Shown here piece by piece: positions 2,646 through 6,257 of a DNA stretch of 6,257 nucleotides (its first letter is position 1; each line of letters starts with the position of its first letter). Source of the DNA: Acidobacteriota bacterium (GTDB lineage: Bacteria > Acidobacteriota > Terriglobia > Terriglobales > Acidobacteriaceae); the NCBI GenBank assembly GCA_021780415.1, contig JAJXYW010000162.1, forward strand, positions 1-6,257, given 5' to 3'. Made by a program: the position numbers and the translations under genes. The notes below the pieces were generated by a model, which was given only the letters and a program-made list of their open reading frames with translations, was not told the origin of the DNA and ran no database searches.

Positions 2646-2801
2646 TAGGATCTGTCCAAAAAACGCAGGTCGGCACCTGAGGGTAGGAGACATGCAACGA
2701 CAAAGGGATTGGATACAGGAGGCTCTCCGCTCCGCCACGCAAAAGGCCGGATGGCTCCGGTCGAGAGGACATAGTATTGTGAGCTATTGGACAGGCTCCT
2801 A
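2646..2801. mobile_element. 156-bp element with imperfect terminal inverted repeats (MITE-like or insertion sequence remnant)
   Basis: The left end TAGGATCTGTCCAA (2646-2659) and the right end TTGGACAGGCTCCTA (2787-2801) are inverted copies of each other, sharing TAGGA and CTGTCCAA and differing by one base and a one-base gap between them. The 127 bases between encode no recognisable transposase. A TA is present at each outer boundary and could be a duplicated target, as with TA-targeting elements, but it may equally be part of the repeat. This resembles a short non-autonomous element or two insertion sequence ends joined by a deletion. The family is not identified. The right repeat contains the stop codon of ligD, so the insertion may have set the present end of that gene. 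Confidence 0.45.
2741..2760 (-). terminator. Weak candidate rho-independent terminator after ligD
   Basis: On the minus strand, about 40 bases past the ligD stop, CCGGA and TCCGG form a five-base-pair GC-rich stem around a GCCA loop, followed by CC and four T residues. The stem is short and the T run brief, so this is only a plausible terminator, and it lies within the inverted-repeat element. Confidence 0.3.
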
Positions 2802-5639
2802 GAGGGCGGCGAAGTGAAAGGGGTGGAGTTGCTGCTGGGTTGAGAGGAGCGATTTCCAGGGGTCGGTACGGAGACGACTGCGCCAGACGTCGAGGTTGTA
2901 GACGGAGAAGACGGGATGGGTGGAGTGGTTGAGTGAGGACCAGGGAAGGGGCAGTGAGACGTGGGCTCCGAAGCTGGCGCGGGGGGAGTAGGGGGCAACT
3001 GCAGTGGCGCCGCGCTGGTTGCGGAGGTAGTCCAGGAAGATCTTGCCGTGGCGCGAGGATTTGGTCATTTTGGTTATGTAGAGGGCGGGGTTGTCGCGCT
3101 GCATGGATAGAGCGACAGCGCGGGCTGCGGCCTTGAGTTCGGCCCAGGTGATGGTGGGTTCGATGGGTGCGACGACGTGCAGGCCGTTGCCTCCGGTGAG
3201 CTTCAGAAAGCTCTCGAGGCCGGCGTTCTTGAGACGCTGGCGGACTTCCGCGGCGGCGGCGGCGAGGGTGAGCCAGGAGAGGGTGGGGTCTGGATCGAGG
3301 TCGAAGATGAGACGGTCGGGATGCTCGATGTGCTGGTTGGTGCAGCCCCAGGGGTGGATCTCGAGGGCGTCGAACTGGGCGAAGGACAGGATGGCCTGGG
3401 GGCTGTCGACGGTGATGTAGGGCTCGGGCTGGTCGGAGGTCTTATCGGTGATGGCGATGGTGCGGATGCCCGGGGGGATCGCGGTGTTGATGTGCTTCTG
3501 GAAGAAGCAGGGCCTGGCAGTGCCGTCGGGACAGCGGACGAGGCTGAGGGGACGGTTGGCGATGTGGGGGAACATGCGGTCTGCGACGGCAGCGTAGTAG
3601 TCGGCGAGTTGCTGCTTGGTGAGGCCGGTTTCGGGGTCGAGGACCTTGTCGGGGTGTGTGAGATGGAGGATGGCAGGAGCGGCGAGGGGCCGGGGTCTTG
3701 GCTTCGGGGTTGGGAGCGAGAATTTTTGCAGAGTCGCAGGATGAAGGCTTACATGGGCGCGTGGGGAGATGGGTTTCGGGTTCTCGGGCTGAGGGGATTC
3801 CTGCTTTCGTCCGGGGGCAGATCTTCTGGGTTTCGGGGCTACGGTGGGAGATTCGCGGGTGACCTCAGCGGCGGATTTGTCGTCGCGGAGACCGAGGAAG
3901 GCTGCTTGACGGACCAGGTTGTCGGAGGTCCAGGTGGCGAAGCGAATCTGGGCGACGAGCTCGGGCCGGACCCAGTAGGCTCCACGCGCGGCGTCCGGCG
4001 GGACGTGGTCGAAGGCCGGTTCGGGGACACGGATATGGACGAGCCGCATGAGGAGATCTCGGCGGATTTGTTGGGTGAAGCCGGTTCCGGTGCGGCCAGC
4101 ATAGATGAGCTTCGCGGGCGTGTGCTTACCGTGAGTGAGTGGTGGGTAGTAGCCGAGGAGCAGTGCACCGATGCGATCGGGGCCTTCGGCGGATAGGGTG
4201 AAGCCGCCGATGATGAGTTCCTGCTCGCGCAGGCACTTGGACTTGAGCCAGTCGGAGCAGCGGACGCTGCGATAGGGCGCGTCGGCGCGCTTGGAGATGA
4301 TGCCTTCGGCGTGAAGCTGGCAGGCGTGGCTGAAGACGTCGTCGCCGTTGCCGGGGATGTCCTCGGAGAGACGGAGAGTTTCACTGTGGGGTGGGATGAG
4401 GTGGTCGAGGAACTGCTTGCGCTCGCGGAGGGTGAGGTCTCGGGTGCTGTGGCCGTCGAGATGGAGAATGTCGAAGAGGAAGTAGGTTCGGGGGTGCCCC
4501 TGGGCGTCATGAAAGGAGGCCTGGAGGAGGGCGAAGCTGGAGTTGCCGTGAGCGTCGAGGGCGACAACTTCGCCGTCGAGCGTGCAGGTGTGTGGGGGGA
4601 GTTGGGCGATGGCGGCGGCGATGACGGGCATGCGGTGGGTCCAGTCGAGGCCCTTGCGGGTGAGTAGGGTAACCTCGGAGCCGGACTTGCGGGCCTGGAT
4701 GCGGTAGCCGTCGAGCTTGAGCTCGTGGAGCCAGTCGCCGGTGGTGGGGGTGGCGGTGGCTTCGAGTGCAAGCTGCGGGGCGATGAAGTCGGGCTGAGAC
4801 TCGCGGGGGAGAGCGTCGAGGCTGATGGATGCGGCGTGGTTTGGCCGGCGCTTCGATTTTGGGGCGTTGCTGTGCGATGGTGAGGCGCTGGATTCGGCGG
4901 GATCAGGGTCGGCGTTGGCTGCACCCCAGACGTGGTCGTGGGCGGCGGCGATCTGGGGGATGGAGCGGCCAGTGACGGCGGAGTTGGGGCGCTCCTCGGT
5001 GATGGCTGGGTCCCCGGGGCCGCGCTCGTACTTGTCGTGCTCCTTGATGAGGAGCCAATGGGGCTTGGCGCTGGCATCGGCCGTGTCTGTTGAATGGCTG
5101 TTCATGCGGATCAGAGACCACTTGCCCTTCATTTTGGCGCCATTCATCTCGAATTTGAGGTGGCCGCTGCGGAGACAGGCCTGGACGTTCTCGCTGCCGA
5201 GCTGTGGCCACCAGCTTCCCTGGTCCCAGATCATGACGGTGCCGCCACCGTACTGGCCCTTGGGAATGATGCCCTCGAAGCCACCGTATTCGAGAGGGTG
5301 ATCTTCGACCTCGACGGCGAGGCGGCGCTCCTGCGGGTTGTAACTGGGACCTTTGGCAATGGCCCAGCTCTTTAGCACGCCGCCCCAGGCAAGACGAAAG
5401 TCGTAGTGGAGATGCGAGGCATCGTGCATCTGGATGACGAAGGGAAGGCCGCGCGATACGGCGGGCCTGCGGATGGAAAATTGATTGGAGGGGCTGGAGC
5501 CGGAGGGCTCGGCAGTGAGGTTGAAGTCGCGTATGGAGCGGTAGCGCGCGAGTTGCTCGTCTATGGCGCTGGATGCGGCGCTCGCTTGGGGATTGCGCTT
5601 GCGGATGATGCTCGATGGGACGGTTCTGCTGGTTGCCAT
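2799..5639 (-). CDS. ligD: Multifunctional DNA ligase D (phosphoesterase-ligase-polymerase), non-homologous end joining
   Basis: LigD repairs double-strand breaks with Ku: it trims 3' ends, fills in nucleotides and seals nicks using ATP. The 946-residue protein is complete and full length. The 3'-phosphoesterase domain (about 65-200) has HDASHLHYDFR, giving H72, H78, D80 and R82, plus H114 in VEDHP. The ligase domain (about 285-590) has motif I KLDGYR with adenylated K308, LDGEVV at 354-359, FLFD at 387-390, EGIISKR at 445-451, DWLKSK at 463-468 and an OB fold ending near FLGLRDDK at 581-588. A Pro/Lys/Arg-rich linker (about 600-655) leads to the polymerase/primase domain (about 657-935), with metal-binding D780 and D782 in FDLDP, TGGNGLH at 815-821, and D870 in IFLDY. 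This domain order is that of Pseudomonas LigD, not the mycobacterial polymerase-first order. The ATG is preceded by AGGA seven bases upstream and starts nine bases after the ku-like stop, implying one operon. Its own stop lies within an inverted repeat. Confidence 0.97.
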   Translation of the reverse strand: MATSRTVPSSIIRKRNPQASAASSAIDEQLARYRSIRDFNLTAEPSGSSPSNQFSIRRPAVSRGLPFVIQMHDASHLHYDFRLAWGGVLKSWAIAKGPSYNPQERRLAVEVEDHPLEYGGFEGIIPKGQYGGGTVMIWDQGSWWPQLGSENVQACLRSGHLKFEMNGAKMKGKWSLIRMNSHSTDTADASAKPHWLLIKEHDKYERGPGDPAITEERPNSAVTGRSIPQIAAAHDHVWGAANADPDPAESSASPSHSNAPKSKRRPNHAASISLDALPRESQPDFIAPQLALEATATPTTGDWLHELKLDGYRIQARKSGSEVTLLTRKGLDWTHRMPVIAAAIAQLPPHTCTLDGEVVALDAHGNSSFALLQASFHDAQGHPRTYFLFDILHLDGHSTRDLTLRERKQFLDHLIPPHSETLRLSEDIPGNGDDVFSHACQLHAEGIISKRADAPYRSVRCSDWLKSKCLREQELIIGGFTLSAEGPDRIGALLLGYYPPLTHGKHTPAKLIYAGRTGTGFTQQIRRDLLMRLVHIRVPEPAFDHVPPDAARGAYWVRPELVAQIRFATWTSDNLVRQAAFLGLRDDKSAAEVTRESPTVAPKPRRSAPGRKQESPQPENPKPISPRAHVSLHPATLQKFSLPTPKPRPRPLAAPAILHLTHPDKVLDPETGLTKQQLADYYAAVADRMFPHIANRPLSLVRCPDGTARPCFFQKHINTAIPPGIRTIAITDKTSDQPEPYITVDSPQAILSFAQFDALEIHPWGCTNQHIEHPDRLIFDLDPDPTLSWLTLAAAAAEVRQRLKNAGLESFLKLTGGNGLHVVAPIEPTITWAELKAAARAVALSMQRDNPALYITKMTKSSRHGKIFLDYLRNQRGATAVAPYSPRASFGAHVSLPLPWSSLNHSTHPVFSVYNLDVWRSRLRTDPWKSLLSTQQQLHPFHFAAL

Positions 5640-5646
5640 GATGGAT

Positions 5647-5651
5647 TCCTA
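5647..5651 (-). promoter_or_regulatory. Ribosome binding site of ligD overlapping the ku-like stop codon
   Basis: On the minus strand TAGGA begins with the TAG stop of the upstream gene, and AGGA sits seven bases before the ligD ATG. This arrangement suggests that ribosomes finishing the upstream gene could restart directly on ligD. Confidence 0.6.
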
Positions 5652-5954
5652 TGCGGTCTTTCGCCTGGGAGATGTCCGGGTTGGCTTGACTTCGCGGTGC
5701 GGGTGCGCCATGGATGCGGCCCGAATCAGCGTGGGCCCTTTCCGTGAAGCGGGCTTAGGTGCGGCAGGGGTGTCAGTGATCTTTGTATCATTTACTGGCT
5801 TACGCAACGCGTCCACGAGGGGTATGCCCTGGGCGCATTTGCGAGCGGCAGTCGCTTTGTGGGGTGTCGCGGCATGCCTGGCGGGGACAAGGATCCTGAC
5901 GCCGAAGGAGACCAGCGAGATATGGATTTTGCCGCTCCAATAAGGACGGGCCAT
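5649..5954 (-). CDS. ku: Internally deleted Ku-like protein (Ku N-terminal strand joined to Ku C-terminal tail)
   Basis: Bacterial Ku is a homodimeric ring of about 260-320 residues per chain that threads onto broken DNA ends and recruits LigD. This frame encodes only 101 residues. Residues 1-20 (MARPYWSGKIHISLVSFGVR) match the very start of bacterial Ku. Residues 43-50 (PLVDALRK), followed by a basic Pro/Lys/Arg tail ending SPRRKTA, match the segment after the Ku core, where family members have a MDALRKS-like motif and a Lys-rich extension. The intervening core of about 200 residues, including the DNA-encircling bridge, is absent; the join seems to fall near residues 20-26. The reading frame is nevertheless open, the ATG has TGAGG seven bases upstream, and ligD follows nine bases later in the same frame. 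It could be a decayed gene that kept its frame, or a real mini-protein keeping only the LigD-contacting tail. Ku identity rests on both ends and the ligD neighbour. Whether it is functional is unknown. Confidence 0.7.
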   Translation of the reverse strand: MARPYWSGKIHISLVSFGVRILVPARHAATPHKATAARKCAQGIPLVDALRKPVNDTKITDTPAAPKPASRKGPTLIRAASMAHPHREVKPTRTSPRRKTA

Positions 5955-5961
5955 GAATACG

Positions 5962-5966
5962 CCTCA
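5962..5966 (-). promoter_or_regulatory. Ribosome binding site of the ku-like gene
   Basis: TGAGG on the minus strand lies seven bases before the ATG at 5954. It supports that start over the alternative upstream frame and shows that the translation signal of the shortened gene is intact. Confidence 0.6.
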
Positions 5967-6073
5967 CGCAGGCATGGTGTGCCATGAAGGTGAGAGTGTA
6001 CGCCCGGGACAATGGGATGTATAGGATGCGTGACGCGGCGATAATCGGATGGGCAGGACAGATCGTGCGGGTA

Positions 6074-6106
6074 GCTGGTTCAGGGTGTGAGGACCACTGA
6101 ACCAGC
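6074..6106 (-). terminator. Perfect 10-bp hairpin downstream of the malate synthase-like gene
   Basis: GCTGGTTCAG (6074-6083) and CTGAACCAGC (6097-6106) are perfect reverse complements separated by 13 bases, within which GGT and ACC could extend the stem. It begins 25 bases after the stop codon of the gene on its right. No run of T follows on either strand, so it may be a T-less terminator or an mRNA 3'-end stabiliser. It lies between that gene and the ku-ligD operon, suggesting separate transcription units. Confidence 0.5.
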
Positions 6107-6131: not shown

Positions 6132-6257
6132 CTAAGCGTTGTAGCCTTCCTCTTTGAGGATGGTGTTGTAGGCGGAGAGGGTGAGGAACTCCTGAAATCT
6201 GGGAGCGTCGATGAGGTTGCGGATGAGAGTCGCGGCGAGGTTGTAGGCCTTGACGCG
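6132..6257 (-). CDS. Probable malate synthase, C-terminal 41 residues only
   Basis: The open frame enters from the right edge and ends with TAG at 6134-6132, giving 41 residues. They include RFQEFLTLSAYNTIL (20-34), which resembles the conserved C-terminal FLTL-x-AY segment of malate synthase A, the glyoxylate-shunt enzyme joining glyoxylate and acetyl-CoA to malate. The preceding amphipathic helix (AYNLAATLIRNLI) fits that fold's C-terminal helical plug. The ending KEEGYNA is charged. The fragment is too short for certainty: no catalytic residue is visible, so the family name rests on one motif recalled from memory. A gene is well supported by the clean frame, the strong amphipathic pattern and the hairpin just downstream. 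Confidence 0.55.
   Translation of the reverse strand, partial: RVKAYNLAATLIRNLIDAPRFQEFLTLSAYNTILKEEGYNA

Follow-up and report, generated by a model that had tools for sequence, protein, structure and literature searches.

A shortened ku reading frame before ligD

The DNA stretch considered here (the window, 6,257 nucleotides in full) comes from a Granulicella-like acidobacterium, a soil bacterium, and carries in minus-strand order the end of a malate synthase gene, an open reading frame (ORF) of 101 codons, ligD, and a gene fusing B12-binding, MeaB and methylmalonyl-CoA mutase parts. In DNA end joining, Ku is the ring protein. The 101-codon ORF (5649..5954), which starts with ATG and directly precedes ligD (2799..5639, 946 aa), is an in-frame remnant of ku that retains both ends of the gene and lacks the core. 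Most probably this ORF is what an in-frame deletion has left of ku, with its two ends held in place by the expression of ligD. The genes and gene segments of the locus described here lie on the minus strand.

Intact Ku proteins from the genus, 18 in number (the Ku of genome G026 and the second Ku of G002 were not included), were combined into a profile, which matched the ORF at both ends, residues 1-24 aligning with profile positions 1-24 (32.7 bits) and residues 26-101 with positions 240-318 (23.5 bits). The total of 53.6 bits compares with 5.4 bits for the best of 200 shuffled sequences, and profile positions 25-239 found no match in the ORF. The original prediction, which saw Ku-like ends around a missing central core, is thus borne out on both points. 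When the ORF was compared by tblastn with a small set of 12 LigD loci, for which the E-values hold, its residues 1-44 (E 3e-11) and 18-101 (E 1e-21) both matched the full-length, 346-aa Ku of Granulicella sp. L46 (locus L002), relative to which the deletion spans about codons 19-252. Pfam and NCBIfam searches of the ORF returned no family match, because the core modelled by PF02735 is the very part that is missing.

Three segments can be distinguished within the ORF. The first (5901..5954) corresponds to Ku codons 1-18 (MARPYWSG..SFG) and keeps 12 of the 12 columns conserved across the 18 intact Ku proteins. It is followed by the deletion junction and a decayed region (5796..5900) that corresponds to the region after the core of intact Ku, taken by its position as the minimal C-terminus, in which 8 of 15 conserved columns are retained and 7 are changed, including three residues of the GKVxxLMDAL motif (G, V and M) as well as the S following ALRK. 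The third (5652..5795) is the extended Ku C-terminal tail (..SRKGPTLI..SPRRKTA), recognised by tblastn and by comparison with the L002 Ku and with a second short allele, P0001. In total, 83 of the 116 conserved Ku columns are deleted. The similarity of both ends and the place before ligD indicate that the ORF descends from ku; compared with bacterial Ku (TIGR02772 / PF02735), its N-terminal strand and C-terminal tail derive from that family, whereas the beta-barrel core that forms the ring is absent and the conserved C-terminal region is altered. Judged by its sequence, the ORF has lost the functional core and classifies as a remnant.

How the deletion arose can be approached from the intact L002 gene, in which the deleted stretch is flanked by similar in-frame sequences, GGCGTAAAACTCTTCGTCGCC and GCCGTCAAAGAACTCGTCGACGCC. 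A deletion between such imperfect repeats is therefore plausible, and it would of itself preserve the frame. As for the middle of the ORF, 34 to 238 of 500 shuffles reached the score of the alignment between 78 nt of this stretch and ku DNA, which thus does not stand out clearly from shuffled sequence. The protein P0001, found by protein search on a separate contig (ENA, 3007 bases), is likewise 101 aa long and 96% identical to the ORF, with four residue differences, three of which lie in residues 23-29. In the decayed region it reads HAPTP, which comes closer to HAPIP, the sequence in intact Ku, and the middle stretch is therefore read as diverged ku. That the middle 90 nt are of foreign origin was also considered and rejected: besides the self match, blastn against the window and the loci gave short matches only, the best covering 19 nt (E 0.014). 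The same protein search returned P0002, which comprises 146 aa from the C-terminal part of a Ku and lies on a contig of 1433 bases.

Ku and LigD among relatives

The 12 compared LigD loci (L001-L012) belong to records named Acidobacteria bacterium, Acidobacteriaceae bacterium or Granulicella, and an intact ku precedes ligD in four of them (L002, L003, L008 and L009). In the others ku is broken or has vanished. In the closest relative, G001 (locus L001, LigD 89%), the remnant is frame-shifted at codon 2 and its tail is broken; the frame from the ku ATG stops 140 nt ahead of ligD. More of ku is left in G010 (L010, LigD 79%), which lacks about codons 82-244 and carries a later frameshift; its deletion differs from that of the window and is nested within it. 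The short form that the original prediction proposed to look for in relatives is found again in P0001, and not in these next relatives, where the frame is broken. In six further loci (L004-L007, L011 and L012), little can be recognised apart from vestiges of the first ku codons and the 33 nt directly ahead of ligD; the ku ATG is gone from its aligned place in all six, and the ku stop has become TCG in four (G005, G006, G007 and G012).

At the level of the genus, 27 of 28 sampled genomes have LigD and 19 have Ku; one (G018) has neither, and LigD occurs without detected Ku in eight of the 27 (G001, G004-G007 and G010-G012). It had been proposed that loss of the core was perhaps tolerated owing to another ku copy. 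This is not supported in the kin, as a search of the eight Ku-less relatives, near kin G001 and G010 included, detected no Ku. Single-genome absences are weak evidence, because completeness was not stated and the RpoB domain PF00562 is itself absent from three of the eight Ku-less genomes (G007, G010 and G012) and from three of the 19 with Ku. At each of the eight Ku-less loci, however, the assembly covers the position ahead of ligD, and no intact ku occurs there.

In a LigD tree the Ku-less rows fall into two clades. Clade A comprises the window, G001, G010 and three rows of unknown Ku state, and clade B comprises G004-G007, G011 and G012. The Ku-positive G002 sits on the clade B side of the split (support 100/99), so that the starred branches of the tree force two changes. 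On this topology, Ku would have been lost either twice, or once and then regained; two losses are preferred, since ku occupies the corresponding position in G002 and has a similar leader there.

Across a family sample of 398 genomes, the LigD POL domain was found in 299 and Ku in 289. Genomes with POL and without Ku were more frequent in the genus (7/26) than outside it (15/273; Fisher p 0.0012), and among these 15 only G290 and G184 carry an almost complete LigD on a single contig, the remainder having partial, split or more distant homologues. A split LigD was also seen in the Ku-positive G020, where ligD (L088) ends past the ligase domain and POL is encoded elsewhere (C1:812691-813605).

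Conservation of the two ends and competing explanations

The ku stop codon TAG overlaps the Shine-Dalgarno (SD) sequence of ligD, 9 nt before the ligD ATG. It belongs to a 33-nt block before ligD (5640..5672) that holds the end of ku with its stop inside the SD motif AGGA, that is followed by the ligD ATG, and that probably serves as the translation initiation region of ligD. Where ku is intact (L002), the block encodes a Ku end similar to SPRRKTA. The block is kept in all eight Ku-less loci examined, four of which have a mutated ku stop, with 30-33 of 33 nt identical in G001, G004, G006, G007, G010, G011 and G012; G005 likewise keeps it if a 1-nt offset is permitted. Even where the stop became TCG, the SD motif GGAG is retained. 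Among the six clade B loci, the mean pairwise identity of the 33 nt before ligD is 0.93 (0.91 in four deep pairs), compared with 0.78 (0.77 in the deep pairs) for a 33-column leader block and 0.55-0.80 for the other seven blocks; the segment matching the window leader forms the second conserved island of this clade. As the block persists without a ku stop and overlaps the ligD SD, an intact ku end is to be expected even in a dead ku. The earlier argument against decay is thus not supported by an intact frame end, stop and ribosome binding site. As a separate observation, the 22 nt upstream of the ligD SD (TCTCCCAGGCGAAAGACCGCAT) are near-unchanged in clade B without a ku coding role, which is more than would be expected of an SD by itself.

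On the opposite side, the ku/ligD leader (5955..6004) contains a putative -10 element (TACACT) and an SD (GAGG), both identified by eye; a consensus promoter scan called no promoter. In the proposed scenario, ku would have been the first gene of a ku-ligD operon, and the Ku core, about codons 19-252, would have been removed from it by an internal deletion that kept the frame. The remainder would no longer be kept as a Ku protein: its 3' end would persist as the holder of the ligD ribosome binding site, and its 5' side through the leader, which may contain the ligD promoter. The remnant and ligD may be translationally coupled, and LigD would presumably work without Ku in this organism. The simpler of the two readings offered by the original prediction, an internal in-frame deletion, is thus the better one.

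Substitution patterns bear on whether the remnant is still kept as a protein. Over the whole remnant, changes at the three codon positions number 12:9:12 on the window branch and 12:11:18 on the G010 branch, compared with 42:28:82 in LigD. Intact Ku controls (G015/G016/G019, outgroup side) show a third-position excess, at 21:13:70 overall and 7:8:19 in the tail. In a strict subset, from which doubtful columns and the last 33 nt were removed, the G010 branch counts 5:8:6 (p 0.029 versus LigD).

Several points speak against the decay scenario. On the window branch the contrast with LigD is weak (21:12 versus 70:82, Fisher p 0.084), and it disappears once the strict subset is used (2:3:5, p 1.0). 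Two alleles have the short form in frame, and the search for a second ku covered relatives only. Finally, over the 5' side, defined as 90 nt of leader and 57 nt of ORF (codons 1-19), the window branch has 2/147 changes and the G010 branch 16/147 when G010 and G002 serve as references. By comparison, changed third positions of LigD amount to 82/930 with these references, a larger share than on the 5' side of the window branch, and to 65/941 when G001 is the sister and G010 the outgroup. The three trios compared disagree, so that constraint on the 5' side is not firm: with G001 as sister, the window branch has 9/145 changes and G001 has 33 (outgroup G010), or 7/145 and 29 (outgroup G002). By trio, the first 57 nt of the ORF account for 0, 1 or 2 window-branch changes and the leader for 1/50, 3/48 or 2/48. 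The 5' side may be conserved or slowly drifting, and it is clear that more changes have accumulated there in G001 and G010 than in the window. Some leader sites within 5955-6043 conflict with the LigD tree: G001 and G010 agree against the window at several of them, though LigD makes G001 the sister of the window.

Among the alternatives, the one that survives best, while still improbable, regards the ORF as a short leader ORF for translational coupling, with reinitiation at ligD, in which frame and length matter and the peptide does not. The overlap of TAG with the ligD SD, 9 nt from the ATG, and the marked conservation of leader and first codons in one of the three trios (2/147) would fit such a role. 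However, this conservation is not marked in the other two trios, the G001 frame ends 140 nt early, and clade B has no ku ATG; as ligD is kept in G001 and in clade B alike, coupling is not generally needed.

A functional ring-less mini-Ku is a good deal less likely. Its C-terminal part would bind the POL or LIG domain of LigD and stimulate or tether the enzyme without encircling DNA, in line with the cofactor or competitor role suggested earlier. The open frame in two alleles and the fully retained N-terminal columns are compatible with such a protein, as is the published role of the Ku minimal C-terminus, which, according to PMC9638933, is enough for interaction with LigD in both B. subtilis and P. 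aeruginosa, and which for M. tuberculosis LigD is the C-terminal feature chiefly responsible for stimulating ligation. Yet seven of the 15 conserved columns after the core are changed, three of the four allele differences lie within residues 23-29, and the next relatives are frame-broken and keep ligD nonetheless. The best-kept part is moreover the N-terminal strand, which is not known to have a role with LigD. The earlier suggestion keeps a low probability. Slightly more doubtful still is the specific version in which a translated 101-residue ring-less Ku derivative acts as a LigD-binding cofactor in a Ku-free use such as single-strand or base-excision repair; if true, it would represent a transitional stage in which a different pathway is taking over LigD. 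That a collapsed or misjoined contig dropped the ku core is hardly credible, because the distinct second allele P0001 lies on a separate contig and the sister loci L001 and L010 are also without intact ku.

LigD without Ku and the flanking genes

The window LigD carries the PE, LIG and POL domains (Pfam/NCBIfam) in the order PE-LIG-POL, and its inspected motifs are intact, like those of G001 and G010, in agreement with the intact ligD originally described. By sequence, it is a three-domain enzyme with its catalytic residues. PMC8656161 gives the catalytic residues of PE as His42, His48, Asp50, Arg52, His84 and Tyr88 (P. aeruginosa numbering); they were located here by motif spacing. The window PE stretch had no match among PDB sequences, and the POL stretch had five distinct matches, all to LigD or non-homologous end joining (NHEJ) polymerase domains.

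HxxxxxHYDFR and DHP are found in all 19 LigDs of Ku-positive genomes. In clade B, His42, His48 and His84 are lost from G005, G006, G007 and G012, and G011 lacks His42, Asp50 and His84 together with the POL domain; G004 keeps its PE residues and has GLD in place of the POL motif DLD. PE catalytic residues are thus lost in five of the six, and all six are hit in PE or POL. All 15 rows inspected, among them six from clade B, retain the ligase motif KLDG. In G004 and G011 the lysines of motif V are altered, and the ligase of these two may therefore be weakening too. Clade B appears to document a staged decay, in which loss of Ku is followed by that of PE and POL sites, and the ligase lysine motif stays. 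Ratios of nonsynonymous to synonymous substitution rates in LigD were 0.18-0.22 for three pairs from clade A, 0.25-0.36 for four from clade B and 0.07-0.08 for three Ku-positive pairs (G015/G016/G019); as the Ku-positive pair G002-G003 reaches 0.42, they were not used as evidence of relaxation.

A LigD-only state is known to be common: PMC7719229 describes it for 619 of 5,973 genomes, 90% of which lack POL and PE. The Ku-less kin resemble these genomes in having LigD and no Ku. The window and its closest kin differ from them by a three-domain LigD, with the ku remnant still visible at its place. In comparison with LigD as modelled by NF004628 / TIGR02776, the window protein is a full PE-LIG-POL enzyme, whereas the six clade B relatives have lost PE or POL catalytic residues or the POL domain. 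A literature search found no report of this ku remnant, which is not proof of absence. The remnant itself is ordinary gene decay; a ku fossil before a three-domain ligD provides a well-resolved example of a LigD-only state arising by loss, and the series of loci appears to catch the stepwise dismantling of NHEJ within one genus, first Ku and then PE and POL sites. As these loci supply natural, related enzymes, the role of LigD without Ku becomes directly testable.

The upstream neighbour is the 3' end of the malate synthase gene (6132..6257), assigned by DNA alignment to L001, in which the gene was called by Pfam; the order from malate synthase to the place of ku is common to both. A perfect 10-nt inverted repeat, which was not called terminator-like, occupies positions 6074-6106 in the gap between this gene and the ku remnant. 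Downstream of ligD, a 21-nt inverted repeat (2420-2463, 81% complementary, arms 2 nt apart) covers the start of the mutase gene.
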